From Venturia oleaginea (Eukaryota > Ascomycota > Dothideomycetes > Venturiales > Venturiaceae): a stretch of DNA of 64,000 nucleotides. A program made the translations under genes and the position numbers. The notes under the pieces were generated by a model. The model was not told the DNA's origin. It worked only from the letters and a program-made list of their open reading frames with translations, and did no database searches. Shown in pieces: positions 15,293-64,000 of this stretch; the stretch's first letter is position 1, and every line of letters starts with the position of its first letter. The stretch spans positions 1,240,001-1,304,000 of the forward strand of contig JABMLP010000005.1 of assembly GCA_013176395.1 (NCBI GenBank), read 5' to 3'.

Positions 15293-18200
15293 TTATCCCC
15301 TCCCCCCCTCTCTTGTAGATCGATGTGAGCGTAGTCTCTGAGGGCGTAGTATAGGTCCGTCGTTTTCAAGAACGTTGCCGTAGGCACTTTCAAAAGCGTC
15401 CAGAGCTGTAGTTTGTTGGAGTTCGCTAAGGGGTTCCCACGTAGGATCAACGTAGCCTACCCACTTAACTAAGACTTCTCGCGTTTGTTGTCGACCTCGC
15501 CGGCGCCATCTTGCGGCTAGAATAGCCTCGATACCGTATTCCTCGTCTCCTTGTTCAGTTACTATAGGAGGCGGCTGTGTATTATCTTGTATTTGTGAAG
15601 GTAGGGGATCTGTGCCAGCTCTCCTAAGTAAAGACGTATGAAATCGGTTGTGGATTCCTCTGGGTGTATCAAGCTCGTAAGACATTGAGTTGATAACTCG
15701 TGTAACTGTATACTTCCCATGAATCCAGTCTAGTTTCTTACAAGGACGTAGGGTTTTTACGTTCTTTAGGTTGAGCCAGACTTTGTCTCCCACTTTAAAA
15801 GAGTCAGCCGGAGCACGATCTCTATTAGAGTAGTATTCTTGCTGTTGCTGAGCTGATACCATTGACGTTTCTGCCCATTCTTGTGCGTCCTTCAATTTTG
15901 CTACAAGATCTTGTGCTTTTTCTTTTGGATTCTTAGGGGTTTCCTGGGGAGCTTCAACAGTTCCTATATGCTCAATGTTATAACCGTGGGTTAAGAAGAA
16001 AGGCGATAGGCCCGTAGCTTGGTTTGGTCTATTATCGAGGCATATTTGAGCAATAGGCAGGAGCTCGACCCAGTCGTTCTGACTAAATGTACAGAACTTA
16101 CGTAGATAGGCTTCAACTTCTTGATTTCTTCTTTCCGTAGATCCATCAGTCTCAGGGTGATACGCTGTAGAGAGTCTTCTCTCTATCTTAAGAAGGTGAC
16201 AAACTTCTTTCCAGAAAGCATTAACAAATTGCGTGTCCCTATCTGAGACTAGAGATCTAGGAAGCCAGTGTAATCTTACGTAGTTCTGCATAAATAGTTT
16301 TGCAAATCCTTCAGCTCCAAACTGTTCTTTAGGCACTGGGAACAGGATAGTTCCTTTACCCAAGCGGTCAGTAATAACGCAGAGTCTTGTGCATCTTTGG
16401 CTCTCTGGTAATTCGACTATGAAGTCTACTGAAATATCTTGCCAGATACGGCTAGGGACAGGAAGAGGTTTAAGTAAACCTTTCTTTTTGTCTCGCCAGA
16501 CTGAAGTTCTTCCGCAGACGTCACAATTGCGTATAAACTGACGTATATCTTGAGCAAATCCCGGCCAGTAGAACTGTCTGGAGAGAATAGCAATAGTAGC
16601 TTCTCGTCCAGGATGCCCTGATAGGACTGAATCGTGTATTTCTTGAATTACTCCTGTTAAGAGAGGCTCGTAGGAGGGCAACCAGATTCGGTCTCTATAG
16701 TAGAGCTGGTTATTTTCGACTTTACAATCTCCTATAGAAGTAGGAACCTTTAGCTTAGATGGGAACTGCCTATCTTGCTTTAGAACGCTTTGGAAAATAC
16801 GTCTGTAGTCTAGATCTCCTTCGAGTGCAGTTTCCCATCTATCCCTTAGATCACCTGAGAGAAAGGGATTTTGTATAAAGGGGATAGGTTCTTTGTCTAC
16901 TTCTTGAGCATTTTCTTGGGCAGCTTCTTCTCTTGCAGGAGTCTTATCCTCTAGAACGTTAATCCAAAGCTTTGGAGGTAATAACGTTCTAGTTCTTTCA
17001 ACGATTCTTGGGTCTTGAATATCCTTTGGGAGATCTTGATCCCTTCGAGTTAAGGCGTCTGGAACTACAGATTCAGAGCCTGGGCGATAGCCTAGTTTGA
17101 AGTTAAACTTAGCTAGTATCTGCGCCCATCTCATTTGCCTTTCATTTAGTTCCCTTTTTACCATAAACTTCTCAAGGTTCTTGTGATCTGTGAGGATAAT
17201 GAATGGCTTACTTAGGCTTAGTAGCTCGCTAGTCCAATGGACTAGAGCTTTGACTATAGCCATAAGTTCTTTGTCGTGGATATCATAATTGCATTCGGCT
17301 GGCAAGTGCTTAGTAGAGAAGAAAGCACATGGTTTCCAGTTACCTAGCTCATCTTTTTGACTAAGTACTGCTCCGGAAGCCCAGCCTGAAGCATCAGGTT
17401 CTACTCGCGTAGGCTTATCTTCATCAAGTGCAGACAGGACAGGTTCTTTGCAAAACTCTGCCTTAAGTTTTTGAAAAGATTCTTCTTGCTCCTTTCCCCA
17501 TAAAAATGGAGTATTCTTCTTTGTAAGGCGAACCAGAGGCTCCCTTATTGTTGAGTTATCTTTTACAAAGTCACGGTAGAAGTTTGTAAAGCCTAGGAAG
17601 CCACGTACTCCTCGTAGAGTAGTAGGACGTTCCCATTCTTTAATTGCTTTGATCTTCTCCGGATCCATGTGTAGGCCCGTTTCAGTATCTATAACGAAGC
17701 CTAGATACTTGACTCGTTTGGTATTAAACTCGCACTTCCGAATATCAAGGTATAACCCAGCGTTAAGGCAGCTTTGAAGTATCTTTTCAGTCTTTTCTTC
17801 ATGGTCTTTAAGGTTCTTTGAAGAGTATATTACTATATCGTCTAGATAAGCTGAGCAGAACTCGTCTAGGTATCGTCGAAGGATATAGTTTATATACCGT
17901 TGAAAAGACGCAGGTGCACCGGTTAAGCCAAAGGGAGTAACTAGCCATTCAAATAGACCATATCTAGTTCGAAAGGCAGTTTTGAACTCATCTCCCGTTG
18001 CGATTCGAATCTTGTGGAAGGCAGCATTTACATCAAGCTTACTAAGATACTTAGCACGAGCTAAGGTTAGTAAAGTCTCTTTTACTAACGGTAGCGGGTA
18101 CCTATCCTTTCGAGTAATTGCGTTTAAGGCTCGGTAGTCTACGCAAAAGCGTAAGCCCCCTCCTGGTTTCTTCACAAAGAGAACTGGAGACGCAGCAACT

Positions 18201-19130
18201 GATTTACTCTCTCGGATAAAGCCTTTATCTAGTAGCTCTGTAAGAGTCCTTCGCAAAACAAGGAGTTGTTCTCGACCCATACCATATAGAGGTCCCCAAG
18301 GAAGTGGTTTTCCTTCTTCTATAGGTATTTCGTGATCAATCCCAGGGCGATGCGGTGGTAGTCTCTCGGCCCTTTTAGGATCAAAGACAGCAGCGTACTT
18401 ATGAAACCTCTTAGGTAGCAATTCCAGTATTTGCTCTGTTGTCAAAGGGACTTTCGGCTTCAAGGCAATATCAATATCTCGAAGAGTAACAGCAAATACT
18501 CTAGACGCGTCTTTGATTTTCTCAAGTGTAGAAGTGACAAGGCGGTGGAATCTTACGGGCGCTACTTGTTGTATATCAAGTTTGTCTTCAAATTTAGCAT
18601 CGCGAATGCTAATCCCGTTTGCAAAGGTAAGAGTACCTTTAGATTCATTGATAACGGCTTTGGTGTCCTTGAGAAAAGGCCTGCCTAGTAGAAGATCCTC
18701 AAATTGTCCCGGGACTATATAAGCAAAAGCGTTGCATATAAGTCCCCCTAAATCTAGGTTCAACTTCGCAATTTTTGTCACTTGGGTCTGTCCTTCTTCC
18801 TTAAGAACTCCACCTATAGTACGCGGACTAATAGGGAGTACTTCAAGGTCCATCTGCGAAGCTTTCTCCTCGTTTATTGATGCGTAGCAGCTAGATCCAT
18901 TATCAAGGAGAGTTTTAAGAGAGTATATATCGTTCACTATAGTATTTGTGTAGAAAAGGCGGGAGAGCATCTTGGGTCTGAACTGCTCCCATTCTTTTTC
19001 TATCCGAGAACGGTGTGAATCAGTGTCTTTGTTCGAATTCAAAATACTATTTACTCTCTCAATTGACTCCTTTGACAATTTTGCTCTATCTACTCTACGC
19101 CTCCATCCACGACTTTGGATAGAGGCTACT
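15293..19130 (-). CDS. pol: Pol polyprotein of element 1 (PR-RT-RNaseH-IN-chromodomain)
   Basis: About 1,270 codons; there is no ATG at the beginning (the first in-frame start-like codon is TTG at 19078). The frame is open upstream into the end of gag and lies in the -1 frame relative to it, so a Gag-Pol fusion by frameshift is likely. Order: retropepsin-like protease with LLDNGSS in place of D-S/T-G; reverse transcriptase with the YLDD catalytic box; RNase H; integrase with an H-H-C-C zinc finger (HPGREA...CDVCGRT) and D-D-E core (SVDFI, VSDRDTQF, TERRNQE); C-terminal chromodomain (LVKWVGYVDPTWEP). The chromodomain, which in related elements steers integration to modified histones, places it among chromoviruses. 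The stop codon TAA sits immediately at the 3' LTR boundary, and the purine tract overlaps the last codons. Confidence 0.95.
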
Positions 19131-20148
19131 CTTTTTCCGAGTAGTCCTCTTCTTCAACTTCTTCATTCTCCTCAGTGGTTCCTTTGGCCCTTTTTGAACC
19201 AAGTTGCGTGACTCTTTCTACCTCTGTATCCAACCAGCAGTCTTTCATTCTATGGCCGGCCTTCCCACAGCGTAAGCAGAGGTTATTTGCCTTCCTATAT
19301 TCATAGGCTTTAGACGAAATTTTTAACTTGTTTACGCGTGTAGGCTCCCAGTCCATAGCGTTCAGATCTTTAAAAGACTTCTCTTTATCTCTGAATCGTA
19401 ACTTATCTTCTGAGGAAGAGAGCATCTTTGCTGTAGTGATTTGCATACTTGTATTCAAAAGATCGGACACAAACTGCTGGTAGGAGGTACTCTGAGATTG
19501 GCCTATTCTCTGGTTTCGCAGCTCTTGATTTATTGCTTTGTGGAGAAATGCAATTTTAACAGCGTCAGGCCAAGTCATTCCTCCAGCATTAGCAAGAGTG
19601 GTTTCAAAACGGGGAAGAAAAGAGAAGAAGGGTTCTTTCTCTTTTTGTTTGATTGTGGACAGGCTTACAGTAGCTCTTTGTTGTTGTACTGGATCGCCAT
19701 AGAAGTTGTCCATATACTGTAACAATTTCTGTCCCGTTTTATCTTCCTCTGGAGCTGTCTTTACGTAGGCCAGAGTAGCCTGAGCTGCGGAGCCTCGTAG
19801 AGAGGAGAAGATGTAGGCAAATTGGTTCCTACTATCCCCTATAGATTCTGCGTCTATCTCCAACTTCATCCTTGCTTGTTGAAACCACTGAGCCCATTCA
19901 GAACGCTTGCCATCAAATTCTTGGAGCTTAGGAAGTACAGCTTTCTTCCTATGTATTCTGTCTTTTTGTGAATTCTTAGTCTCTTGTCCTTCTACTACGT
20001 TCTCAGAGCGAGTAGTGTTAGGCAAGATTGTAAGAATACGCGTAATAGCATCGTTCTGAATGGCTAGTTGATGTTGTAATGCTGCCATAGCTTCTTGTAG
20101 GGCTTGGGGTTCTTGAGGAACTCTTTGTTCCTGATCTTCTCCTTCCAT
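19126..20148 (-). CDS. gag: Gag protein of element 1
   Basis: 340 codons from an ATG, ending SEKE-stop. The central part carries the retrotransposon gag fold typical of Ty3/gypsy elements (FYGDPVQQQRA, PFFSFLPRFE region). Near the end is one CCHC zinc knuckle, CLRCGKAGHRMKDC, for RNA packaging. The tail is very acidic. The last codons TCG GAA AAA GAG TAG overlap the -1 pol frame. Confidence 0.93.
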   Translation of the reverse strand: MEGEDQEQRVPQEPQALQEAMAALQHQLAIQNDAITRILTILPNTTRSENVVEGQETKNSQKDRIHRKKAVLPKLQEFDGKRSEWAQWFQQARMKLEIDAESIGDSRNQFAYIFSSLRGSAAQATLAYVKTAPEEDKTGQKLLQYMDNFYGDPVQQQRATVSLSTIKQKEKEPFFSFLPRFETTLANAGGMTWPDAVKIAFLHKAINQELRNQRIGQSQSTSYQQFVSDLLNTSMQITTAKMLSSSEDKLRFRDKEKSFKDLNAMDWEPTRVNKLKISSKAYEYRKANNLCLRCGKAGHRMKDCWLDTEVERVTQLGSKRAKGTTEENEEVEEEDYSEKE

Positions 20149-20812
20149 ATTTTCACCTATGAGAGATAATAGAGAGCACTACTATACACACTCCTAGGCT
20201 CTACTCTAGAGATTTGCTAGGCAGTATAGAGTCAATGCCTATTAGTATAGGAAGGTGACTATAGAATCCCAGAAGGATTTTTTACACTATAGTCCGCTCT
20301 GCAATCCTTATTACTAAGGACAGAGCTCCCAGGGACTGTGAAGGCCAAGTGTATTAAATCTCTCTCCCTAGCTCTTTCTTTCCTCAGCTTATTACAGCTT
20401 CAACTCCTAAGACTACGCTGTCTTAGGATGACCTGCCCTTGCTTCTTGGAGATTCTAGCACCTTCTAGAAAATCTCAGTTTGAATTCTCTTGAATTCCCT
20501 TTTTGGATTGGCCCTTTCGGTTGGCCCTTGCTTCTTGGAGATTCTAGCACCTTCTAGAAAATCTCAGCTTGAATTCTCTTGAATTCCCTTTTTGTTTGGC
20601 CCTTGAGGTTGGCCCTTGAAGTTGGCCTTTGAGGTTGGCCCTTGCTTCTTGAGTTAGGACAAGTGTCCTCTTCTTGAAATTCCTTTCTGTTTGGCCCTTG
20701 AGGTTGGCCCTCGCTTCTTGGATTAGGACAAGTGTCCTCTTCTTGAAATTCCTTTTTGGAGCTTGCTCTCTGTGAGCCTTTCTTCCTTTGTAAGACTGAG
20801 GTACTTAGATAA
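20149..20812 (-). repeat. Repetitive 5' leader of element 1
   Basis: The leader between the 5' LTR and gag contains degenerate repeats. An approximately 90-bp unit beginning GCCCTTGCTTCTTGGAGATT occurs at 20434 and 20524. A second family built on TTGGCCCTTGAGG and TTAGGACAAGTGTCCTC runs to about 20760. The self-priming site is at 20801-20811. No conserved open frame is apparent. Confidence 0.8.
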
Positions 20813-34592: not shown

Positions 34593-34626
34593 TAGATTCA
34601 GTTCTTTACAAACCTAGGTGTATTTG

Positions 34627-35720
34627 ATGCGTAGCAACAGTACCCTATCGACTCCTACAACCTACACCCCTACTACCGACGACGACCCAATCGCGAGCAT
34701 TACGCAAGGAATCGACAAACTCTCAATGGCTCGAGCAAATTCGCCTGACACCGTACAACAATTGGTGGCAGCTCTGACCGCAGTCAGTGTTGATGGGAAC
34801 ACCGGTGCAAAAGCTATTGCATGGCCTAAATGGGACGGGAAAAGAGACAACTACACGCTGTTCAGATGGCAGATCAAGACAAAAATCACTGTTGAAAATG
34901 GGAAGCTTGGAAGCAATCAAGGAATATGCGCGAACATCTTCAACGGGCTTCCGACAGAGAAACAACAACGCGTCATCCAATGGCTAAGCAATGGAGAGCA
35001 ACATGACAACTACGAACCCGAGTCCTTTATCAAGCATATGGACGACAAGTTCTTAGATCATGAAGCGAAAGCTAAAGCTCTCGACGAGCTGAACAAGATT
35101 AGCCAAGGCAGCAGACAACCGTTCAAAGACTTCCGCCAGCAGTTCGAACAACTGACATCGCAAGCTGGATCCCTAGCGCCGCAAAGAGCCTCAAAGATCA
35201 CTATCATGAACAACGCGCTCAACTACTCCCTCCAACAGACCTTGAAATCAGTGCGATTGTCCAGGGACGACTACGACACTTACGTAAAAGATGTACAGTA
35301 CTTCGCGACGAAGACAGAGGCTCTATCCCACCAACGCCGCTATCCAAGTACGGATAAGGAGACGCCAACGACTCGAGGGAGCCACAATCACCCCAAACAG
35401 TCAGTCGTGACGCAGAAGGCGATGTCGAAATGACTGGCATCAACGCCCTTTCAGCGCAGATCGCAGCACTGATAGCTCGGGTCGATACACTCGGAAAGGA
35501 TGCGAAGAAGGACCGACGACCTAGAGCGAAATGGCGATCCCAAACAGAGTTCTTGGCACTTATACAAGCGGGCAAATGCGGGCGCTGTAAGAAGCCCAAG
35601 CACCATCCGAACGTATGCGAATTCCAACCAGCAACACGTCCAAAGACTCAGGTCACTGCGGTAATCACACAGCATACCGATGACTCCCTACAGGAAGCCT
35701 CATCAGAGTCGGAAAACTAG
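34627..35720 (+). CDS. gag: Gag of element 2, frame split once
   Basis: From the ATG at 34627 the first frame runs to TGA at 35431-35433 and contains the retrotransposon gag domain (KAKALDELNKISQGSRQPFK region). The second frame, -1 relative to the first, carries the rest: it is open from at least 35370 and ends at TAG 35718-35720. It contains one zinc knuckle, CGRCKKPKHHPNVC. The sense of both frames between 35370 and 35433 suggests a one-base indel near 35330-35380 (the second frame reads EPQSPQTVSRDAEGDVEM). This is more likely a mutation than a programmed shift, since both parts are needed for a normal Gag. The end, TCG GAA AAC TAG, overlaps pol in the -1 frame. Confidence 0.85.
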
Positions 35721-38700
35721 CTACCCTTGTGCATCGTCGCGCACGAGGGTCTGAAGTAGATGTACATGGCGAAGACATTACAAAGCTACCAGGCATAAGA
35801 GAAATCAAAGCAGCAAAGGATAGAATGGAAAGTACACCCTTCTTGATAGATACCTTGATCAACGGAACTTCTTTCACCGAATCCTTCTTTGATAACGGCT
35901 GCCTCCCTTATGCTGCTTTCAGCGAGAAGAGTGTCCAAACACATCGTCTACCGCGCATCCCAATTGACACCAAACAATTGGCACTGGCTAAAGAGAGCCA
36001 CGAGAACGGAGAAGACCTCCGTATTACGCACATGACCTACGCTACGATCGACATTGATGGTCGAGCAGAGCGAGTCTATGGGTATATAGTGAAAGGATTG
36101 AGCTTCCCTATTATCCTAGGCAAGGCATGGGCAGAGAGAAACTGGGTGCGATATATAGCAGCTAAGAGAAAGCTGCTTATTGGTCAAGGATCCCAGCGCA
36201 TCACGGTAAGAGAAAAGGGGTGGCTAGAACAGAACACCAAAGCGCGAGACCGGCTCGCTCACGTGCGGGCGGCTTGTCTAGTGTCAGGATCTGTATTTGC
36301 AGCTATTGTTGGAAGGGCCCAGCGACGGTTGAGAAGAGATGGACCGGATGGTACACAAGTGCTGGCTATCTCGATGTCGGATATCAACAAGGCCCTAAGC
36401 AAGTTAGCAGAAAGAAAACAGAGAAAGACTGAGGAAGAAATCCGACAAGAGATACCAGAAGAAATAGCAGAGCATGCTGATGCCTTTCTCGACGACGAAG
36501 ACGGAGAGATCGCGCCCCATCAAGAGGGTCGCGATCACGTTATCGAATTGATACGAGATGAACAAGGTCGCGAGGCAGAAGTTCCTTGGGGCCCATTATA
36601 CGGCATGTCGAGGGAAGAGCTATTAGTCCTACGAAAAACACTTTCGGACTATATGGACAAGGGCTGGATACGCGCCAGCAACTCACCAGCGGCAGCCCCA
36701 GTCTTATTTGTAAGGAAACCAGGTGGAGGCATTCGGATGTGTGTAGACTATCGGGCACTGAATCGAATCACTCGATCGGACCGCTACCCATTGCCACTAA
36801 TCCGAGAAACCCTACGAAATCTAGCAACAGCGCGTTGGTACACCAAACTTGACGTCAGAGCGGCATTTCATCGGCTCCGCATCAAGCACGGCGATGAGTG
36901 GAAAACGGCTTTTCGCACTCGATTTGGACTATTCGAATGGCTAGTTACCCCCTTCGGACTAGCTGGCGCACCCGCGAGCTTTCAACGATACATCAACGGA
37001 GTCCTACGGGAATCCCTAGATATCTGCTGTTCAGCCTACATGGACGATGTCTTGATATGGAGCGACGGCGACTATCTGGATCACATGGTTAAGGTTAACC
37101 AAATTCTTGCCAAGCTCAAGACTGCTGGACTTCGGCTAGACTTAAGCAAGTGCGAGTTTGCTGTTCAGGAGGTCAAATATCTGGGGTTCATTATCACTGC
37201 AGGAGAAGGGATCAAAGTCGACCCAGAGAAAGTTGCCGCGATTAAAGAATGGGAGGCTCCAGTCAATGTCACAGGCGTACGCTCCTTCCTAGGCTTTGCA
37301 AATTTCTACCGAGACTTCATCGACAACTTCTCAGAGCTCTCCGACCCCTTAATCAAGTTAACACGGAAGGCCGTCGCTTTTGTCTGGAACAAAGAACATG
37401 AGAACGCCTTTCAAGTCTTGAAGGAGCTATTCATCTCCGCCCCAATACTGGCTCACTGGAATCCAGACCTGGATACGGTACTCGAGTGCGACTGCTCTGG
37501 CTACGCGCTGGGAGGCACGTTGTCGCAGAAGGATATGAAAGGAAAACTACGACCAGTAGCATACTTCTCCCGCAAGCTCACTGCGGCTGAATGTAACTAC
37601 GAGATCCACGATAAAGAATTACTGGCAGTAATCAAGTCCATTGAACACTGGAGAGGAGAACTACGCAGTGTTGCAGCACCTTTCAAAGTCCTTACCGATC
37701 ACAAGAATCTCCGCTACTTTATGACAGCGCAGCGTTTGTCAGAGAGACAAGCAAGATGGTCGCTAATTCTATCTGAGTACCAATTCCAGCTGGAATTTCG
37801 CGCCGGAAAACTAGCGCAAAGACCAGACGCACTATCAAGAAGACATCAAGATATGCCACATGACAAGAACGACGAGAGACTACAAGGGCGAGTGGCCCAG
37901 TTGATCAAGGACGAATGGCTTCCTCCTCTTTCCGAGAGGACGACCGAAACAATCGCAATACAAGCCCTTATCTGCCCAGTCAATACACCGAATACATCCA
38001 ATAGTACATGGGACGTTATACGGGAGCCCCAGCAAAATACTGGACTGGACGGTCGACACCAGCTGACTGCCGAAAACGGTCAACACCGGTCCACTACTAG
38101 GTACGGTCAAAACCGGTCAGTTGCAAAAGGATGCGATCTTTTCGAGAAACCAGAGTTACAACTTCTCTGGGATCGCGCAATAGCAGAGGACCAATCCTAC
38201 GAAGCTATTCATACGGCTATAGTTACTGGCGAACGTTCCTTTCCTCCAGAGCTTAAGTTGTCGGTACAGCTACCCGAATGCGAAGTAGACGACCACGGCG
38301 CGGTCACGAGAAGAGGGATCCTATGGGTACCAGATTGGGAACCGCTGCGAACAACGCTGGTCCAACAAACTCACGATTCCCATGTTACTGGACACCCAGG
38401 GAGAGATAGCACGCTTGCGATTCTATCCAGAAGTTTCTTTTGGCCCCAACAATACAAGACAGTCCGGCAGTTTGTACGTAATTGCGACGTATGTGGGAGA
38501 ACAGGAATATGGCGTGATAAGAAGCGAGGTCTTCTGAAACCACTTCCAATCCCGGCCCGCTTCCACAGCGAGCTATCAATCGATTTCATGACTGATTTGC
38601 CCGCGGAGGAAAACGGCCCAAAATACCTCATGGTTATCACAGATCGCCTCCTCAAAAGTGTTACGTTGGAGGCTATGACTACAATGAGCGCCAAAGAGTG

Positions 38701-39805
38701 CGCGAAAAGGTTCTTACAATGCCACTATCGCTACCACGGATTTCCCATGGCATTGACGTCGGACAGAGGCAGCAATTGGACAGGTCGTTTTTGGAGGAAG
38801 CTTTGCGAACTTACAAAGATTGAGCAGAGACTCTCTACAGCCTTTCATCCACAGACCGATGGCGCGACCGAGCGTATGAACCAGGAAGTTCTACGCTATC
38901 TCCGCGCCTTCATCGCATACTCCCAACTAGACTGGCCAACGCTACTACCTACGGCTATGTTAGCACTGAACAATCGTGACTCTTCAGTCACAGGGATGAG
39001 TCCATTCTATCTAACCCACGGCTACCATGCGGAACCAATCCAGAAAGTACAACGAATCTCACCCAGTAACTCACCAACAGCCGATGCCGAGACCTTTGTG
39101 CAACGAATAGAAGAGGCACAAGAATATGCACAGGCAGCGATGGCCTGGTCCCAGCAGAAGATGGAGAACGACGCCAACAGGTCACGTCAAGCTGCCGAAA
39201 CGTTAAAAAAGGGCGACAAAGTCTGGTTGAACCTTAGGAATATCAATACTCCGCAGCTATCAAAGAAACTGTCGTGGACGCAAGCCAAATACACTGTCGA
39301 GAACCAGATCTCCCCGATGGTATACGAGCTGGCTGACCTGCCAAGTGGTATCCATAACCGTTTCCACGTTGACCTACTCCGCCGAGCCGCAACCGACACA
39401 CTGCCCTCACAAGAATCCGATGATACCCAGCCGCCACCATTAGTGCCTCAAACCGAAGAAACAGAGGCTGAGTTTGAAGTAGAACGTATACTTCGCGCAG
39501 AGAAGAAACGGGTTGGGCGAGGCTGGGTTCGTCAGTTATTAATCAAATGGAAAGGCTATGCAGATCCCGATTGGCAGCCACGTTCATTATTTACAGAAGT
39601 CGAGGACTTAGACCGCTTCGAGGCAGAGTATGGCAAGGGCGACGGTGTCGGCGAAGATATAGGAGCTCAAACAGGGGCCCGAAGAAACCGAGTAGCGGTG
39701 GCCAGCGCCTTCGAATCTGCTACAAGCTGGCAGAAGCGATGTATGGCGTTTGTCTGTTTGATTATCCCACCTACCACACCCTCTTTAGTCCTGCACACCC
39801 GGTAA
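35711..39805 (+). CDS. pol: Pol polyprotein of element 2 (PR-RT-RNaseH-IN-chromodomain)
   Basis: About 1,360 codons, no ATG at the start, open upstream into gag in the -1 frame. Protease with FFDNG as active-site variant; reverse transcriptase with YMDD; RNase H; integrase zinc finger (HVTGHPGRDS...CDVCGRTG) and D-D-E core (LSIDFMTD, TSDRGSNW, TERMNQEV); chromodomain LLIKWKGYADPDWQP near the end. The sequence CDVCGRT-x-x-WRDKK-GLLKPLP is shared with element 1, so the two are related families of the same lineage. Uninterrupted, unlike gag. Confidence 0.95.
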   Translation, partial: GKLATLVHRRARGSEVDVHGEDITKLPGIREIKAAKDRMESTPFLIDTLINGTSFTESFFDNGCLPYAAFSEKSVQTHRLPRIPIDTKQLALAKESHENGEDLRITHMTYATIDIDGRAERVYGYIVKGLSFPIILGKAWAERNWVRYIAAKRKLLIGQGSQRITVREKGWLEQNTKARDRLAHVRAACLVSGSVFAAIVGRAQRRLRRDGPDGTQVLAISMSDINKALSKLAERKQRKTEEEIRQEIPEEIAEHADAFLDDEDGEIAPHQEGRDHVIELIRDEQGREAEVPWGPLYGMSREELLVLRKTLSDYMDKGWIRASNSPAAAPVLFVRKPGGGIRMCVDYRALNRITRSDRYPLPLIRETLRNLATARWYTKLDVRAAFHRLRIKHGDEWKTAFRTRFGLFEWLVTPFGLAGAPASFQRYINGVLRESLDICCSAYMDDVLIWSDGDYLDHMVKVNQILAKLKTAGLRLDLSKCEFAVQEVKYLGFIITAGEGIKVDPEKVAAIKEWEAPVNVTGVRSFLGFANFYRDFIDNFSELSDPLIKLTRKAVAFVWNKEHENAFQVLKELFISAPILAHWNPDLDTVLECDCSGYALGGTLSQKDMKGKLRPVAYFSRKLTAAECNYEIHDKELLAVIKSIEHWRGELRSVAAPFKVLTDHKNLRYFMTAQRLSERQARWSLILSEYQFQLEFRAGKLAQRPDALSRRHQDMPHDKNDERLQGRVAQLIKDEWLPPLSERTTETIAIQALICPVNTPNTSNSTWDVIREPQQNTGLDGRHQLTAENGQHRSTTRYGQNRSVAKGCDLFEKPELQLLWDRAIAEDQSYEAIHTAIVTGERSFPPELKLSVQLPECEVDDHGAVTRRGILWVPDWEPLRTTLVQQTHDSHVTGHPGRDSTLAILSRSFFWPQQYKTVRQFVRNCDVCGRTGIWRDKKRGLLKPLPIPARFHSELSIDFMTDLPAEENGPKYLMVITDRLLKSVTLEAMTTMSAKECAKRFLQCHYRYHGFPMALTSDRGSNWTGRFWRKLCELTKIEQRLSTAFHPQTDGATERMNQEVLRYLRAFIAYSQLDWPTLLPTAMLALNNRDSSVTGMSPFYLTHGYHAEPIQKVQRISPSNSPTADAETFVQRIEEAQEYAQAAMAWSQQKMENDANRSRQAAETLKKGDKVWLNLRNINTPQLSKKLSWTQAKYTVENQISPMVYELADLPSGIHNRFHVDLLRRAATDTLPSQESDDTQPPPLVPQTEETEAEFEVERILRAEKKRVGRGWVRQLLIKWKGYADPDWQPRSLFTEVEDLDRFEAEYGKGDGVGEDIGAQTGARRNRVAVASAFESATSWQKRCMAFVCLIIPPTTPSLVLHTR

Positions 39806-44270: not shown

Positions 44271-46121
44271 ACGTATTCCACCATCGAGCGGGTCAACCCA
44301 TCGAGCGGGTCAAAAAGGCTTGGCACGACCAACTTATGTTACGACTCTTCAATTTAATCGCTATCAACAATAGATTCTAAGTCCGTCGTGCTGCTATCTG
44401 ATTCAGAAGATATCTTGATATCTTTTTTACAAGTTCGCGCATTATGCCCAGCTGCGCCGCAGTTCCTACAGCGCCGTTGAGTTGGTCGGGCTGTTTCTTG
44501 ACCACCACTACCACGAGCCTTCTTTGATCCCTGAGGCGCGACAGACGCCTCTGCAGCTACCTGCGCTGCTGCAGTCCCATACTCAATAGTACCACCTTGC
44601 TGGATCCACTTCCTTTTGCGCCATTTTCGGTTCGTTGTTACTGCTAATTGCTCTTCAAGCTCGCGGTTAAGCGCAACAAGCAGAGCGTTTTGGTGTAGCA
44701 TCAATTCAGCGCCCTTAACAAGCTGGGAAAAGCCTGCCTGCGCAGTAACTGGTGACCGAGTAAAAGACTCGCTTACGAGCTTGGATTGGGATCCAAATTC
44801 ATAAGTATTACTTGGAGTCTTGGACTGCCACGGCGTTTCTGGGAGATGGGTTTCTGGCGGGGTTCGTAGCCGTACTTCAAGGCGATCCAACACCACCTGC
44901 GCGTCGATAGGGACTAGCCCTACTGCCTCAAAAGCCTTTTGACAGTTCTCTTTCGTAAACACGTCGAAAAACGCGTCTTTGAAGGCAGGGAGAAAGCCTT
45001 CCTTGTTGATATGGTACACGCGTCGGCGTGCCAAGTCCCGGACGCGTTGGGAGTACTTGCGCTTCAACGGCGAGAAGCAGACCACGTCAAGGGGCTGGAG
45101 TATATGCGACGAGTGCGATGGCATGCAGAGGGTTATAATCTTGTTTTCGAGGCAGTAGTCCTTGAAATCCTGGCTGAGATGGCTCTCATGGCCGTCCAAA
45201 ATAAGCAGCCTGTATACCCCCACCTGCCGCGCCTTTGTATACGCGTTAAAGTGCTTCAACCACTCAAGACCAAGCGCGTTATTTGTCCAGCCGTTCTCAG
45301 AGACCGAGAGCTTCCAATTCCGTGGTATATCTGCCTCCTCATATCACGCAGAAATATGAACGCGTCCTTTGTAGATAATGAAGGGCGGGGTCGCATACCC
45401 AGCGGCGCAGATGCTCTGGATAACTGTAACCCACTCGCGATCGCCTGGCTGGATTAAATTAGGCCGTGTACGTCTTTCAGAAGCTGTGACGACCTTCATT
45501 GACCCAATAACGCCCATCTGGAAGCCAATCTCGTCAAAGTTGTGCGTATCCTCGTCGTGGATGCCGTACTTTGCCTTAGTGTCTGCAACGAGCTTGAACC
45601 ACGCGCCAATAATCTCTGGATCTTCCTGTAGTATCCTCTGCCTGTCCTTAGCTCGATTGAAGGCCATCTTGAGCTCATCTGAGCGCGTTATAAACCTCTC
45701 AGCCCAGTTTTTCCCTACTGGCTCTCCACCGCGTACACCTAGTAGTTTATCCGCCATATCTGCCACCTCACACAGCCGGGGCGCGAATCCTCGCGAATCG
45801 AGGTCGAGGATGTATTGGACAATTGTCTGCTCTTCAGTCGTAGTGAGCTTGTGTTGGGCGTTGCGAGTATCTAGGCGATACGTGATTCCGTTGTATCGGC
45901 TAGTCAATGTTGAAGGAGGTACATCAAACGCTTCAGCAGCGCGCCGGAGGCTTCGGAATTGGTGGGTGTTATAGGCAGAAAGGGCAAGCTGAATTCTGCC
46001 TTCTCTGTTGGATAATTGCGCATTTTGTTGTTGAGACATATCGTGTTAATGAGGGAGTTGGTCGTCTTGGCAGAAACTGACCAGCTCGGTGGGTTGACCA
46101 GCTCGGTGGTGGAACACGTTA
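44269..46121 (-). mobile_element. Pogo/Fot1-type DNA transposon, copy A
   Basis: Element 44271-46119 (1,849 bp) flanked by the TA target duplication (44269-44270, 46120-46121). The imperfect terminal inverted repeat begins ACGTATTCCACC on the left and ACGTGTTCCACC on the right. Next to it are two 17-bp direct units at each end: CCATCGAGCGGGTCAAC type at 44281-44313, and CCACCGAGCTGGTCAAC type on the right. One transposase gene on the minus strand, with a single nonsense codon. Confidence 0.95.
44354..46039 (-). pseudogene. DDE1 (pogo-type) transposase, copy A, one nonsense codon
   Basis: 562 codons in one frame, broken only by TGA at 45344-45346, where the related copy C has TGG. Order: N-terminal helix-turn-helix (residues ~10-60; QFRSLRRAAEAFDVPPSTLT); second HTH/CENP-B-like region (PRLCEVADMADKLLGVRGGE); DDE/DDD core with HNFDEIGFQ, LILDGHESH and PLDVVCFSPLK; C-terminal basic region; a CCHC knuckle CRNCGAAGHNARTC near the end. 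It encodes cut-and-paste transposition. The most intact of the four copies. Confidence 0.92.
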
Positions 46122-52091: not shown

Positions 52092-52173
52092 TAACATATT
52101 CCACCACCGAGCCGGCCAAACCGCCGAGCCGGCCACTTTTCCTTGGCATAGCCCTTATCCTCTTTAACACGTA

Positions 52174-53658
52174 ATGTCTCAACAACGCAACGCGATAGCC
52201 GTTCAAGAAGTTAGAATTGATCTCGCTCTTCAGGCTTATATCTATGGCCAATTTCAAAGCCTACGGCGCGCTGCTACAGCCTTTAATGTTAAACACCAAA
52301 GGCTCTCTGATCGGCTCCGCGGAATCACCTCTCGATCTCAAACTCGCCCAAACTCTCATAAGCTCACTACGATAGAAGAGCAAACGATTATCCGATATAT
52401 CCTCGATCTCGATTCGCGAGGATTAGCACCCCTGCTGTGTGAGGTGGCAGATATGGCGGATAAACTACTGGGTATACGCGGTGGAGAGCCAGTAGGCAAA
52501 AACTGGGCTGAGAGATTCGTAACGCGCTCAGATGAGCTCAAAATAGCCTTCAACCGAGCCAAGGATAGGCAGAGGATACTACAGGAAGACCCAGAGATTA
52601 TCGGCGCGTGGTTCAAGCTCGTTGCAGACACTAAGGCAAAGTACGACGTCCACGATGAGGACACGCACAACTTTGACGAGATTGGCTTCCAGATGGGTGT
52701 TATTGGGTTAATGAAGGTCGTCACAGCCTCCGAGAGACGTACAAGGCCTGAACTCATCCAGCCGGACGATCGCGAATGGGTTACGGTTATTCAGAGCATC
52801 TGCGCAGCTGGGTACGCGACCCCGCCATTCATTATCTATGAAGGACGCGTTCACATCCCTGCGTGGTATGAGGAGGCAGATACACCACGGAATTGGAAGC
52901 TCTCAGTCTCTGAGAACGGCTGGACAAACAACGCGCTTGGTCTTGAGTGGTTGAAGCATTTTGACGCTTATACAAAGGCGCGGCAGGTGGGGGGGGTAAC
53001 AGGCTGCTTATCTTGGACGGCCATGAGAGCCATTTCAGCCAGGATTTCAAGGACTACTGCCTCGAAAATAAGATTCTAACCCTCTGCATGCCATCGTACT
53101 CGTCGCATATACTCCAACCCGCGTAGGTAGTGTTGGATCGCCTTGAAGTACGGCTACGTACCCCGCCAGAACCCCGTCTCCTAGGAACGCCATGGCAGTC
53201 AAAGACTACAAGCAATACTCATGAATTTGGATTCCAATCCAAGCTGGTAAGCGACTCTTTTACTCGGTCACCAGTTACTGCTCAGGCAGGCTTTCCACAG
53301 CTTGTTAAAGGCGCTGAATTGATGCTGCACCAGAACGCCCTACTTGTTGCACGATGAAGAGCAATTGGCAGTAATGACGAAGCGAAAATCGCGTAAAAGA
53401 AAGCGGATCCAGCAAGGTGGTACTATGGAGTATGGGACTGCAGCAGCGCGGGTAGCTGCTGAGGCGTCTGTCGAGCCTTAGGGATCAAAGAAGGCTCGTG
53501 GTAGTGGTTGTCAAGAAATAGCCCGACCAACTCAACGGCGCTGTAGGAACTGCGGCGCAGCTGGGCATAATGCGCGAACTTGTAAAAAAGATATCGAGAT
53601 GTCATCTGAATCAGATTGCAGCACGACGGACTTAGAATCTATTGTTAATAGCGATTAA
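52174..53658 (+). pseudogene. DDE1 (pogo-type) transposase, copy B, degenerate
   Basis: The open frame 52174-53079 (301 codons) holds the HTH region (QFQSLRRAATAFNVKHQRLS), CENP-B-like block and first catalytic Asp. At a G8 run (52989-52996) the frame shifts, so the second catalytic block (LILDGHESH) lies in another frame. A deletion near 53118-53127 removes the third Asp region (PLDVVCFSPLK in copy A). Downstream, the basic segment and CCHC knuckle (CRNCGAAGHNARTC) survive with further stops, including TAG in place of CAG. Clearly non-autonomous. Confidence 0.9.
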
Positions 53659-56631: not shown

Positions 56632-57041
56632 GCATGACTCGGATCCTACATATCATGTTGGTTTTGTAATGCACGAACTCCTGTGTCAGCGAATCTTATG
56701 GCAACATACTTAGCACTGTATTTTGAGTAGGATCAATGGGAGCTATCGGCATCAGCCTATGATTGGTGATAAGACAAAGGAGAGGCAGACGAAGGTGGAG
56801 AGGAAGCCATCACATGCCGATTTAGCGAGTTGGGCGGCAATAATGCCGCTCAGTGTACGGCCTACCAGTCGTTTAGACAGGACAAAGTCATTGTAGAAAA
56901 GGACCTTGGTAAAGAAGAGATGACGCAAGCATTAGTTGTACGGGAAAACTCTGCGAAACGTGCTTTAGTGCAAGTTTGTACTGCTTCCGGACAAAATTAG
57001 CACGACATTATACTAAAATGTGCTGGTATACCATATAATCA
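56632..57041. other. Spacer upstream of tRNA-Cys
   Basis: Nothing coding. It contains the 5' flank of the tRNA gene. Confidence 0.6.
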
Positions 57042-57185
57042 GGAGCGGTAACTCAGTGGTAGGTATGTTAACATTCCCCTTCTGCTCTAATTACAATAGT
57101 TCCTGCTAATATCCAATAGAGTGCGGGATTGCAGTACCAAGCGACAGATATCCTGAAGTCAGGTGTTCGATCCACCTTCGCTCCT
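57042..57185 (+). tRNA. tRNA-Cys(GCA) with a canonical intron and an extra GT-AG insertion in the D-stem
   Basis: Exonic parts: 57042-57062, 57120-57134, 57150-57185, together 72 nt, the usual size of tRNA-Cys. Acceptor GGAGCGG/TCGCTCC (last pair G-T). D-arm ACTC-AGTGGTA-GAGT, where the 3' strand is G57062 plus A57120-T57122. Anticodon stem CGGGA/TCCTG (one G-T), loop TTGCAGA with anticodon GCA at 57131-57133. Variable loop AAGTC. T-arm AGGTG-TTCGATC-CACCT. Discriminator T, as in eukaryotic tRNA-Cys. A 15-nt intron (57135-57149) sits at the normal place after base 37. A second insertion, 57063-57119, splits the D-stem. A-box-like TAACTCAGTGG and B-box GTTCGATCC are intact. TTTTCTTTTT at 57191-57200 fits a Pol III terminator. 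Confidence 0.85.
57063..57119 (+). other. 57-nt GT-AG insertion inside the tRNA-Cys D-stem
   Basis: Begins GTATGTTAAC, contains TGCTAAT (57104-57110) nine bases before its end, and closes CAATAG. These are the donor, branch site and acceptor expected of a spliceosomal intron in this genome, where protein-gene introns also use GTATGT and GCTAAT. Its length is in the 50-60 nt range of those introns. Removing it restores four of four D-stem pairs. tRNA introns at this position are not the normal eukaryotic type. Confidence 0.75.
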
Positions 57186-57190
57186 TAAGA

Positions 57191-57200
57191 TTTTCTTTTT
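57191..57200 (+). terminator. Pol III-type T-run after tRNA-Cys
   Basis: TTTTCTTTTT six bases downstream of the acceptor end. Confidence 0.7.
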
Positions 57201-57677
57201 GCCAAGTTAGCCTCCATCCTTTGAGCCGATTGATTTTTGGCCCTTCTTACCCAAGGATCATGATCTCCACACTCGTATTTTTGGATTAGATTACTTCGTG
57301 AACGCTCCCGTCAAAAGGCGAGCTACTAGGTCTGTGTTTGCTTTTGCTTGCTTCTTTGTAGCCCCGTAACGGCGGCGACGAGTTGTGATCAAACTATCGA
57401 GGCAATGAGTGAAGACGTCGACTTCGACGATGAAAAAAGAAACGGGAGAGACGAAAGCCAGAGATCAAACTTAAAACATGACGAGCAAGTCACGAAATAT
57501 GACGAACTGGTCACATGTTTTCCCGATCCGGGCGAATGCTTTCCGCGACGCGCTCTTGTATTCAGTATCGGACAAACAACTTAAACGAGGCGTTATACTA
57601 CCCAGGTGGTCCATACCGATACCATCTCAATGAGCTACCTCGAGAAGCTCTTCCCCTCTACCTCCCTGAACTCCACA
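57201..57677. other. Spacer before the CENP-X gene
   Basis: No separate gene. A frame open from 57606 leads into CENP-X with an alternative in-frame ATG at 57630. Confidence 0.5.
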
Positions 57678-58350
57678 ATGCCTCCCACCCGCACAACCTC
57701 GAATCCAAATACGCAAAAACGAGCACCTTTCAAAGCCCCCTCGCGCGTCGCAACTGGTGACAAACCCACGAAGACAACCAAGGCTAAACCACCAGCAGCA
57801 TCAAAAGCAAAGAGTGGCTTTCAATCAGCAAAAGCCGTCGACCTCTCAGATGACGCAGAATCCGACGAAGGTGAATCAGAAGACGAGGTCCCGGTACGAG
57901 AACCAGCGAAGAGTAAAGCCAAGGGCAAGGCACCTGCACCAGCAAGAAAAGAGAAGGATTCAGATATTGATATGGAGTCTGACGCTTTATCGGAAAATGA
58001 GGCACCTGCTCCTCCGCCAGTACGCAAAGTTGCAAAGGAGAGAACACTGGATCCCGCGATGCCTATACCTCCGAAACTGTTGACGCGGATACTATGGGAG
58101 GGCTTCGAAGATAAGGACATGAAGATTGGTAAGGAGGCTATATCTGTGGTTGGCAAGTACGTCGAGACTTTTGTGAGGGAGGCTGTTGCGAGGGCTATTT
58201 TTGAGAGGAGAGGGGAGGACGGGGAAGATGAGTTGGGAGATGGTTTCTTGCAGGCATGTACTCTCACTATCATAGTAGCTTATCTGTCGCTAACTTGCAT
58301 AGGTCGATGACTTGGAGAAACTTGCGCCGCAGTTGCTGTTGGATTTCTGA
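57678..58350 (+). CDS. CENP-X / MHF2 histone-fold protein
   Basis: Partner of CENP-S (MHF1); in other organisms the pair binds branched DNA with the FANCM/Mph1 helicase and also sits at kinetochores. Two exons, 57678-58253 and 58303-58350, encode 207 residues. The first ~125 residues are basic, then Ser/Glu-rich and Pro/Ala-rich, disordered. The histone-fold domain starts at PKLLTRILWEGFEDKDMKIG, continues with AISVVGKYVETFVREAVARA, and ends VDDLEKLAPQLLLDF, the typical end of the family. Yeast and animal CENP-X are about 80 residues, so the long N-terminal extension is noteworthy. The intron begins GC (CAG|GCATGT) rather than GT. A different start at 57630 (MSYLEKLFP) is possible; 57678 has the better context (CACAATGCC). 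Confidence 0.88.
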
Positions 58351-60742: not shown

Positions 60743-62616
60743 TAACGTACTCCACCACCCAACCGCTCACACCACCCAACCGCTCAAACCACCCAACCGC
60801 TCAAAATTTCTTGGCACGACCATCTCATGTTACGACTCTTTAATTTTTTCGCTATCAACAATAGATTCTAAGTCCGTCGTGCTACTATCTGATTCAGAAC
60901 ATATCTCGATATCTTTTTTACAAGTTCGCGCATTATGCCTAGTTACGCCGCAGTCCCCACAGCGCCGTTGAGTTGGTCGGGCTATTTCTTGATCACCGAT
61001 ACCGCGAGCCTTCTTCGATCCCTGAGGCGCTACAGACGTCTCTACAGCTACCTGCGCTGCTGCAGTCCCATACTCCATAGTACCACCTTGCTGGATCCAC
61101 TTCCTTTTGCGCGATTTTCGCTTCGTTGTTACTGCCAATTGCTCTTCAAGCTCGTGGTTGCGCGCAACGAGTAGAGCGTTTTGATAAAGCATCAATTCAG
61201 CGCCCTTAACAAGCTGGGAAAAGCCAGCCTGCGCAGTAACTGGTGACCGAGTAAAAGAGTCGCTTACGAGCTTGGATTGGCATCCAATTCATGAGTATTG
61301 CTTAGAGTCTTTGACTGCCACGGCGTTTCTGGGAGACGGGGTTCTGGCGGGGTACGTAGCCGTACTTCAAGGCGGTCCAATTCCGCCTGCGCGTCGATAG
61401 GGACTAGTCCTACTGCCTCAAAGGCCTTTTGACAGTTCTCTTTTGTAAACACGTCGAAAAACTGCGTCTTTGAAGGCAGGGAGAAAGCCTTCCTTGTTGA
61501 TATGGTACACGCGTCGGCGCGCCAAGTCCCGGATGCGTTGGGAGTACTTGCGCTTCAACGGCGAGAAGCAGACCACGTCAAGGGGCTGGAGTATATACGA
61601 CGAGTGCGATGGCATGCAGAGGGTCAGAATCTTATTTTCGAGGCAGTAGTCCTTAAAATTCTGGTTGAGATGGCTCTCATGGCCGTCCAAAATGAGTAGC
61701 CTGTACCCCCCCCCCCACCTGCCGCGCCTTTGTATGCGCGTCAAAATGCTTCAACCACTCAAGACCAAGCGCGTTATTTGTCTAGCCGTTCTCAGAGACT
61801 GACAGCTTCAAATTGCGCGGTATATCTGCCTCCTCGTACCACACAGAGATGTGAACGCGTCCTTTGTAGATAATGAAGGGTGGGGTTGCATACCCAGTGG
61901 CGCAGATACTCTGGATAACCGTAACCCATTCGCGATCGCCCGGCTGAATGAGCTCCGGCCTTGTACGTCTCTCGGAGGCTGTAACGACCTTCATTAACCC
62001 AATAACACCCATCTGGAAGCCAGTCTCGTCAAAGCTGTGTGTGTCCTCGTCGTGGACGCCGTACTTGGCTTTAGTATCTGCAACGAGCTTGAACCACGCG
62101 CCAATAATCTCTGGATCTTCCTGTAGTATCCTCTGCCTATCATTGGCTCGGTTGAAGGCCATCTTGAGCTCATCTGAGCGCGTAAAGAACCTCTCAGCCC
62201 AGTTTTTGCCCACTGGCTCTCCACCGCGTATAGCTAGCAGTTTATTGGCCATATCTGCTACCTCACAAAGCCGGGGCGCAAATCCTCGCGAATCGAGGTC
62301 AAGGATGTATCGGACAAGCGTTTGCTCTTCGGTAAGGGTAAGTTTCCGACCATTTGGTGGTGTTTCGAGGATGAATGGGACTCCTTTAACGCGCTCAGAG
62401 AGGATTCGCTGTTTAACGTCAAAGGCACGAGCGGCGGCCCGTTGGCTTCGGAATTGGCCGGCTTGAAGGGCTTGGAGTGCGAGCTGGATTCTCCCTTCGT
62501 GTTGGAGTAATAGTGCGTTTCGTTGTTCAGACATGATCACATAAGAGGAATGGTAGAAGTCTTGGCAGATTTTGAGCGGTTGGGTGGTTTGAGCGGTTAG
62601 GTGGTGGAACAAGTTA
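60743..62616 (-). mobile_element. Pogo/Fot1-type DNA transposon, copy D
   Basis: Element 60745-62614 (1,870 bp) flanked by TA (60743-60744, 62615-62616). The left end is ACGTACTCCACC with three 17-bp units of type CCACCCAACCGCTCAAA. The right end, read as its complement, is ACTTGTTCCACC with two such units. The repeat word differs completely from copies A-C beyond the shared CCACC. Coding is on the minus strand. Confidence 0.95.
60830..62534 (-). pseudogene. DDE1 (pogo-type) transposase, copy D, several breaks
   Basis: Starts at 62534. The N-terminal HTH (QFRSQRAAARAFDVKQRILS) differs from A, B and C, while the following core (DLDSRGFAPRLCEVADMANK and on) is nearly the same. TAG interrupts it at 61782-61784, where copies B and C have TGG in the same context. 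A run of 11 C (11 G on the coding strand, 61706-61716) shifts the frame. A further insertion (GACGCAGTTTTTCG near 61462) shifts it again. The C-terminal part with a degraded knuckle, CGDCGVTRHNARTC, is open at 60830-61195. The second Cys and His positions of the knuckle remain. Non-functional. Confidence 0.9.
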
Positions 62617-62753
62617 TGCCAAATCTCCTGGCTTATACTCCCCTTCGTGCCTGACAAAGTTCGCATCTAATCGTCATCCTTCTTGCATGCATGTTGGTCC
62701 TGCTTCGCCCGAAAACCCAAGGCCGTTGGAAACTCGGGGCCAAAAGTTGCGAA

Positions 62754-64000
62754 TAACGTATTCCACCACCGAGGCGGCCACACCACCGAGCCGACCACTT
62801 TTCCTTGGCACAGCCCTGATCCTCTTCAACACGCAATGTCTCAACAACGCAACGCGATAGCCGTTCAAGAAGAAGGCAGAATTGATCTCGCTCTTCAGCC
62901 CTATACCTGTGGCCAATTTCAAAGCCTACGGCGCGCTGCTGCAGCCTTCAACATCAAACACCATAGGCTCTCTGATCGGCTCTGCGGAATTACCTCTCCA
63001 TCTCAAACTCGCCCAAACTCCCATAAGCTCACTGCAACAGAAGAGCAAACGCTTTTCCAATATATCCTCGACCTCGATTTGCGAGGATTTGCGCCCCGGC
63101 TGTGTGAGGTGGCAGATATGGCGGATAAACTACTGGGTATACGCGGTGGAGAGCCAGTAGGCAAAAACTGGGCTGAGAGATTCGTAACGCGCTCAGATGA
63201 GCTCAAAATAGCCTTCAACCGAGCCAAGGATAGGCAGAGGATACTACAGGAAGACCCAGAGATTATCGGCGCGTGGTTCAAGCTCGTTGCAGATACTAAA
63301 GCCAAGTACGGCATCCACGACAAGGATACGCACAACTTTGACGAGATTGGCTTCCAGATGGGCGTTATTGGGTCAATGAAGGTCGTCACAGCCTCCGAGA
63401 GACGTAGACGGCCTAATTTGATCCAGCCAGGCGATCGCGAGTGGGTTACAGTTATCCAGAGTATCTGCGCCGCTGGGTATGCGACCCCGCCCTTCATTAT
63501 CTACAAAGGACGCGTTCACATCTCTGCGTGGTATGAGGAGGCAGATATACCACGGAATTGGAAGCTCTCGGTCTCTGAGAACGGCTGGACAAACAACGCG
63601 CTTGGTCCTAAGTAGTTGAAGCACTTTGACGCGCATACAAAGGCGCGTCAAGTAGGGGGGTATAGGCTGCTCATCTTGGACGGCCATGAGAGCCATCTCA
63701 ATCAGGATTTCAAGGACTACTGCCTCGAACATAAGATCATAACGCTCTGTATGCCACCTCATTCATCGCATATCCTCCAGCCGCTTGATGTGGTCTGCTT
63801 CTCGCCGTTGAAGTGCAAGTACTCTCAACGAGTTCGAGACTTGGCACGCCGACGCGTGTACCATATCAACAAAGAAGGCTTCCTCCCGGCCTTCAAAGAC
63901 CGCGTTTTTCGACGTATTTACAGAAGAGAACTGTCGAAAGGCTTTTGAGATGGTAGGGCTAGTCCCTATCAACGCGGAGGTGGTATTGGATCGCCTTGAA
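62754..64000 (+). mobile_element. Pogo/Fot1-type DNA transposon, copy C (cut by the window end)
   Basis: Left end at 62756 (ACGTATTCCACC) after a TA (62754-62755). Two 17-bp units: CCACCGAGGCGGCCACA and CCACCGAGCCGACCACT, i.e. the copy B type. The right end lies beyond the window. It is only 140 bp from copy D and in the opposite coding orientation. Confidence 0.92.
62836..64000 (+). pseudogene. DDE1 (pogo-type) transposase, copy C, broken and incomplete
   Basis: ATG 62836, HTH region like copy B (QFQSLRRAAAAFNIKHHRLS), core in frame to 63612. TAG at 63613-63615 occupies the place of TGG: the other copies read GAGTGG, this one AAGTAG. The frame goes on through LILDGHESH and PLDVVCFSPLK. An extra C near 63900 (GACCGCG against GACGCG in copy A) shifts it. 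It continues past the window end. Confidence 0.9.

Follow-up and report, generated by a model that had tools for sequence, protein, structure and literature searches.

A tRNA-Cys(GCA) gene occupies positions 57042-57185 of the window, the 64,000-nucleotide stretch of DNA analysed here (C45:1240001-1304000), and is complete only when a 57-nt and a 15-nt segment are both left out (Table 1). The sequence, coordinates and tRNA identity given in a preliminary description of this locus hold accordingly. That description had proposed comparing a tRNA finder with and without the 57 nt. ARAGORN with introns allowed reported nothing on the unspliced stretch; with the 57 nt deleted it called tRNA-Cys(gca) and a 15-nt intron, which also bears out the earlier placement of an ordinary tRNA intron at 37/38 beside the larger insert. 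Rfam found no tRNA in positions 56900-57400 at E ≤ 10. The A box, the B box and the T-run were correctly described as retained, with TTTT beginning 5 nt past the end of the tRNA. The TGCTAAT motif of the 57-nt insert is positioned nine bases from its end, and the branch adenosine would be 57109, 10 nt from the end of the intron. The chance of GT-AG together with CTRAY at the right distance was estimated at p ~3.4e-4 per placement, with 4 placements possible.

A DNA search of the genome returned one other Cys(GCA) locus (L003, C4:559930-560016), which carries no insert and reads GTAG/AGTG at the corresponding position. The same two loci were the only genome matches to an exact GGTGTTCGATCCACC query from the Cys T arm. 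Exon 1 of the window gene agrees with L003 and, overall, 70 of 71 compared exon bases are identical, while the 37/38 intron differs. Because L003 preserves the empty site, the insert at D-arm position 22/23 is exact, as first proposed, and its borders are fixed within a 3-nt slide. L003 scores 48.2 bits with Rfam. The preliminary description had taken an uninterrupted Cys(GCA) set, combined with a silent interrupted locus, as grounds against its reading; the first half of that combination is present, as a single gene. With that gene in the genome, the number of copies is no proof that the window locus is used, and the spliceosomal reading is a little weaker for this locus taken alone.

Table 1. 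Features of the window, interrupted tRNA genes and U6 loci
Feature	Position	Strand	Description
tRNA-Cys(GCA) exon 1	57042..57062	+	Bases 1-22: acceptor 5' strand, D stem 5' strand, D loop, A box
Spliceosomal-type intron, 57 nt	57063..57119	+	Between tRNA bases 22/23; 5' GTATGT, 3' ATAG
Predicted branch site TGCTAAT	57104..57110	+	Motif compared with 4 of 5 protein introns of the window
tRNA-Cys exon 2	57120..57134	+	Bases 23-37, anticodon GCA
Ordinary tRNA intron, 15 nt	57135..57149	+	37/38; ARAGORN (gca)i(38,15) once the 57 nt are out
tRNA-Cys exon 3	57150..57185	+	Base 38 to discriminator; T arm, acceptor 3' strand
T arm with B-box core GTTCGATCC	57162..57176	+	Exact GGTGTTCGATCCACC search of the genome
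T-runs TTTTCTTTT(T), likely polymerase III terminator	57191..57200	+	From the sequence
Open frame downstream of the Cys tRNA	57585-58310	+
Long frames with a Gypsy-type retrotransposon gag/pol look	15293-20178; 34618-39805	-; +	By eye
Related transposase-like frames, some broken	44354-46045; 52168-53079; 61782-62666; 62671-63615		By eye
Interrupted Cys-GCA	C45
Interrupted Arg	C18; C6, C20		Arg-CCG; Arg-TCT
Interrupted Ser	C20, C13, C27; C17, C15, C5		Ser-AGA; Ser-GCT
Interrupted Leu	C23; C2, C8, C9, C24; C4, C14; C5, C11		Leu-TAG; Leu-AAG; Leu-CAA; Leu-CAG
Other interrupted genes	C10; C1; C3		Gly-CCC; Pro-CGG; Lys-CTT
U6 loci L112-L118	C23, C16, C12:1178091, C36, C2, C34, C12:932536

Elsewhere in the window, the Pus7 protein is 91% identical to that of Venturia nashicola and 87% identical to that of Venturia effusa, and a permease is 87% identical to its V. 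nashicola counterpart. The fungus is a Venturia or a near relative. The open frame that follows the Cys tRNA by about 400 bases has a C-terminal part that we take to resemble a small CENP-X-kind histone-fold protein.

A genome-wide set of interrupted tRNA genes

The genome (46.1 Mb in 61 contigs) was surveyed using a genome-wide Rfam tRNA search, B-box patterns, a branch-site pattern and DNA searches with single tRNAs. The combined set contains 67 clear nuclear tRNA genes, 45 without an insert and 22 that together hold 29 spliceosomal-type inserts; it is a biased sample because some of the searches started from interrupted genes. The Cys locus is thus a member of a genome-wide class, which goes beyond the preliminary description. 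The tally leaves out seven doubtful loci (L042, L049, L054, L055, L059, L135 and L166, the last with a deleted D arm), a partly read Glu gene (L181) and 17 organelle-like matches, 15 on C38 and 2 on C58. Isotypes were assigned by reading, and ARAGORN names several genes with an anticodon-loop intron otherwise, which leaves the counts unaffected.

The individual searches differed in yield. The Rfam search gave 62 tRNA matches, and 7 of the 40 clear nuclear genes among them are interrupted; it is incomplete, since it missed the uninterrupted Cys gene. The B-box pattern GGTTCGAWTCC matched 68 times, 5 of them on C38, and the other 63 loci, all of which were fetched, contain 18 clear tRNA genes, half of them (9/18) interrupted. 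As the screens reached 250 bases upstream for most loci, longer genes could escape. The broader pattern GGTTCGANYCC had 185 matches, and the loci fetched come from part of 100 of these, among the matches listed. Of 30 such loci, 25 were given to Rfam (L076, L088, L095, L097 and L101 were left out), which recognised a tRNA in L073, L074 and L094 and none in L082 and L098, though both were recognised by reading. The pattern CTAA...AGGTTCRANYC gave 28 matches versus 61 for its reversed control; these were read in part, and three of the ten fetched are interrupted tRNAs (L103-L105). A second screen of 33 later, unflagged loci added L148, which is counted, and L166, which is not. One pattern scan each of viral contigs and of genome contigs, in a set without relatives of this fungus, returned 0 matches.

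The 29 inserts occupy the D arm, the anticodon stem or the T arm. In our own tRNA numbering, eight interrupt position 22/23 (Cys and seven Leu genes), and the remaining D-arm and anticodon-stem sites are 13/14 (1), 18/19 (2), 20/21 (1) and 29/30 (1). Sites further downstream are 50/51 (1), 51/52 (5), 52/53 (7), 53/54 (2) and 57/58 (1). At 23/29 inserts neither the A box (bases 8-19) nor the GTTCRANYC core is interrupted, and one of the two is cut at the other six. Two spliceosomal-type introns are found in 7/22 genes, and 12/22 also contain an anticodon-loop intron according to ARAGORN. The Leu-AAG gene on C2 (L082, C2:198412-198614) holds three introns of two kinds within one tRNA gene, in the D loop, the anticodon loop and the T arm. 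Similar three-intron layouts were seen in L127, L128, L139, L148 and L151.

Several of the loci outside the tally have features of their own. L166 (C34:343512) is Leu-TAA-like, with a T-arm intron reading GTGCGC...CTGAT...ATAG and the look of a pseudogene. The match at the Arg-like L059 (C45:1547090) ends inside the T loop, with GTAGGT after TTCGAG; its 3' part was not found, and the locus may have a longer intron or be a truncated copy. L135 (C7:1014060) is a tRNA-like cloverleaf with a long insert in the anticodon loop. L054 (C19:646319) and L055 (C60:820814) are identical Ile(GAT)-like copies with identical near flanks, and one of them is near a contig end.

Splice signals and conservation of the interrupted genes

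Placement of the inserts revealed GT-AG borders in 29/29, chosen within the 0-5 nt slide allowed by the mature tRNA; the Pro and Lys inserts permit zero slide, yet also have GT-AG. A CTRAY motif is present in 26/29, where the closest branch A precedes the intron end by 10-18 nt, and is absent from three, compared with a mean of 3.5 and a maximum of 10/29 in 2000 shuffles of the introns. Three T-arm introns came from the pattern that requires CTAA, and without them the counts are 26/26 for GT-AG and 23/26 for CTRAY. Lengths are 47-60 nt in 27/29, the other two being 69 and 89 nt. Spliced alignment to V. nashicola proteins located five introns in two protein genes of the window; they measure 51-63 nt, 4/5 contain CTRAY, and the tRNA-gene inserts resemble them in length and signals. 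The spliceosomal appearance that the preliminary description ascribed to the 57 nt, and their likeness to neighboring protein introns, are both borne out. As a negative control, the anticodon-loop introns had GT-AG in 0/37 and the motif in 1/37, a few of them having been misplaced by ARAGORN. Chance is unlikely given this recurrence, 29/29 with GT-AG versus 0/37 of the anticodon-loop introns, which we regard as the strongest argument.

The tRNA is recovered when the inserts are removed. ARAGORN detected a tRNA in 22/22 genes in the spliced form; in the unspliced form it reported something in 7/22, with the wrong amino acid in four. After removal it called the Leu-AAG gene on C9 TAA and the Leu-CAG gene on C11 CAA, where alignment to siblings reads AAG and CAG. 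A TTTT within 60 nt downstream was present in 17 of 19 evaluable genes, three others having been read too short; the two without one are Arg-TCT on C6 and Ser-GCT on C5. Comparison of the Arg-TCT pair revealed exons with an identity of 0.99 and intron cores with an identity of 0.39, versus 0.45 for shuffled sequences. The Leu, Ser-AGA and Ser-GCT pairs with shared sites similarly have conserved exons and mostly diverged introns. Identity is raised to 0.59-0.60 in the introns of two Leu-AAG pairs, for which reason these D-loop introns are probably one ancestral insertion. The pattern suggests that selection sees the spliced form of the interrupted genes. In Ser-GCT on C15, substitutions that seemed to compensate one another across the divided anticodon stem were dropped as an argument, as the uninterrupted L021 has the same stem.

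For some isoacceptors, only interrupted genes were found. A DNA search with the spliced Arg-TCT gene found no uninterrupted copy, only two loci that are both broken at base 52. The equivalent search for Leu-AAG found a D-loop intron in 4/4 loci and no uninterrupted copy, its fifth locus being an uninterrupted Leu-CAA (L168), and that for Arg-CCG found a single, interrupted locus (1/1) and none without an insert. Two caveats apply: words that are very frequent are skipped by these searches, and part of the genome may be missing from the assembly. AGA is normally decoded by tRNA-Arg(UCU), and CUU and CUC by tRNA-Leu(AAG); codons of all three kinds are present in both protein genes examined.

Origin and removal of the inserts

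The anatomy of the Cys locus, the recurrence of the inserts, their splice signals, the recovery of tRNAs, the contrast between exon and intron conservation, and the families for which no uninterrupted copy was found form the basis of our interpretation. The 57-nt insert is very probably a U2-type spliceosomal intron, one of at least 29 in 22 tRNA genes, that would be removed by the spliceosome. Transcription by polymerase III, spliceosomal removal and the order of the steps are what we infer from the sequence. The internal A and B boxes would direct transcription of the interrupted gene by RNA polymerase III, and the spliceosome would cut the GT-AG intron in the nucleus, as is apparently needed for intron-bearing U6 transcripts. 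The D arm (or T arm) would thereby re-form together with the body of the tRNA, and only afterwards would RNase P, tRNase Z and the tRNA splicing endonuclease act, trimming the ends and removing the 37/38 intron. The spliceosomal intron should leave first, since a folded body is presumed to be what the endonuclease measures from (PMC4090602).

The preliminary description had suggested an introner-like insertion, which found no support and was rejected: the 57 nt match the genome once, in a search that may miss common words, and pairwise similarity among the 29 introns was in no case above that of shuffled sequences. As to the target-site duplication expected of an introner, a repeat of TAG (3 nt) is present at the Cys junction and 0-5 nt of slide at the others, which AG/G contexts would produce in any case. 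Depletion of T-runs was likewise set aside as proof of polymerase III transcription. TTTT occurs in 2/27 introns (3/29 with two later introns added), against 7.0 in single-base shuffles, 1% of which are as low, and 3.4 in dinucleotide shuffles, 27% of which are as low, so the depletion is weak and not significant against the latter.

The interrupted copies could instead be relics, pseudogenes with intron-like insertions, while uninterrupted paralogues supply the cell. Such paralogues are present for Cys, Ser-AGA (L016, L035), Ser-GCT (L021), Lys, Leu-CAA (L168) and Leu-TAG (L120), and the exons of Ser-AGA on C20 are identical to those of L016. Two genes look worn: Ser-AGA on C27 has stem mismatches, and Ser-GCT on C5 has a T-stem mismatch and an intron inside the B box in addition to its missing T-run. 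A review also considers scattered eukaryotic D- and T-arm insertions to be mostly pseudogenes (PMC4090602). Random insertions, however, would not give GT-AG in every case with placed branch sites, and the introns drift while the exons stay conserved. The relic explanation, which we consider very unlikely, is hard to hold for isoacceptors such as Arg-TCT, Leu-AAG and Arg-CCG because they were found only in interrupted form. Removal of the inserts by the tRNA splicing endonuclease, as ectopic introns, would have a parallel in Cyanidioschyzon merolae, where such introns go by an endonuclease-type route, and in nucleomorphs, where they are known and their removal route is not (PMC4090602, PMC3978253). 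GT-AG and CTRAY have no place in that route and are lacking in this genome's own anticodon-loop introns. A full 4-pair bulge-helix-bulge central helix was found at 0/27 junctions in one register, with 3/4 pairs at 6/27, a weak test because chance gives the full helix only ~2% of the time. Endonuclease-type removal was rejected and appears extremely improbable.

A further alternative accepts splicing but assigns it to polymerase II read-through transcripts, with the polymerase III transcript never spliced. Splicing is normally coupled to polymerase II, and the open frame downstream of the Cys gene is close enough that its leader could include the tRNA. This is unlikely in our judgment, considering that most evaluable genes are followed by TTTT, that the inserts are inside tRNA bodies at 22 separate loci, and that U6, a polymerase III product in fungi, carries the same kind of intron in this genome.

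Beyond this, it is probable that in this fungal lineage part of the essential tRNA supply is under the spliceosome, with Arg(UCU) and Leu(AAG) coming only from genes whose D or T arm holds an mRNA-type intron. Jointly with this, genes with two spliceosomal introns and one endonuclease intron would need two unrelated machines to act in order on one polymerase III transcript, and mRNA-splicing capacity could limit translation directly. Our confidence in this joint reading is tempered slightly by the limited sensitivity of the searches behind the Leu-AAG and Arg-TCT results. The literature characterizes nuclear tRNA introns as sequences at 37/38 that the endonuclease cuts; in this fungus, tRNAs that are close to indispensable seem to require another machine, unrelated to it. 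If so, tRNA precursors would join U6 among polymerase III transcripts processed by the spliceosome, and splicing and translation would be tied together. Such genes would be overlooked or wrongly named by common finders, as happened with Rfam and ARAGORN on the unspliced Cys gene, and tRNA sets of such genomes would be undercounted. Intron gain would also become measurable in genes bound by structure and an internal promoter, with repeated insertion at 22/23 and 51-53, beside the A and B boxes.

Comparison with known intron systems

Nuclear tRNA genes with spliceosomal introns are, to our knowledge, unreported, and a literature search, in which subscription literature was thinly covered, returned no such report among the matches listed. 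Seven U6 loci were found in this genome (Table 1), and every stretch read contains a spliceosomal-type intron or its 3' end, the 3' side alone having been read for L117 and L118. The junction in L112 is ATTTG/GTTTGT...CTCTAAT...CCAG/GTCAATTTG. Sites vary among the loci, following ATTTG or falling inside GAGAA/GATTAGC or GCATG/GCCCC. L115 has two introns, L114 lacks the first and has another, and L116 looks degenerate. Spliceosomal introns are known in fungal U6 and U3 genes (PMC5832005), those of U6 from work by Tani and Ohshima 1989 and Canzler et al. 2016 (both cited in PMC5832005), and that paper, from 2017, names no small structured RNAs other than U3 and U6 as known to be frequently interrupted. 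For tRNAs, a 2014 review attributes ectopic eukaryotic introns to nucleomorphs and Cyanidioschyzon and treats scattered others as pseudogenes (PMC4090602), and the tRNAscan-SE 2.0 paper describes detection of noncanonical introns for archaea (PMC8450103).

The closest parallel is fungal U6, a small structured polymerase III RNA with mRNA-type introns, which this genome also contains. Unlike U6, the hosts here are tRNAs of many isoacceptors with an internal promoter, and up to two spliceosomal-type introns per gene occur beside an endonuclease intron. Fungal U3 snoRNA genes similarly combine canonical spliceosomal introns with a short structured RNA; U3 is not a tRNA, however, and its introns are almost exclusively in the first stem-loop, whereas those described here are in the D arm, anticodon stem and T arm (PMC5832005). 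Introners and introner-like elements are a proposed source of new fungal spliceosomal introns, Dothideomycetes included, but they are repeated copies (PMC4457414), and the tRNA introns here share splice signals alone. Cyanidioschyzon merolae and nucleomorphs offer the parallel of D- and T-arm introns, several per nuclear or nucleomorph tRNA gene, although these are ascribed to endonuclease-type removal or to an unknown route and measure 3-24 nt in Guillardia (PMC4090602, PMC3978253). The inserts described here, in contrast, are 47-89 nt long and have GT-AG borders and a branch site.
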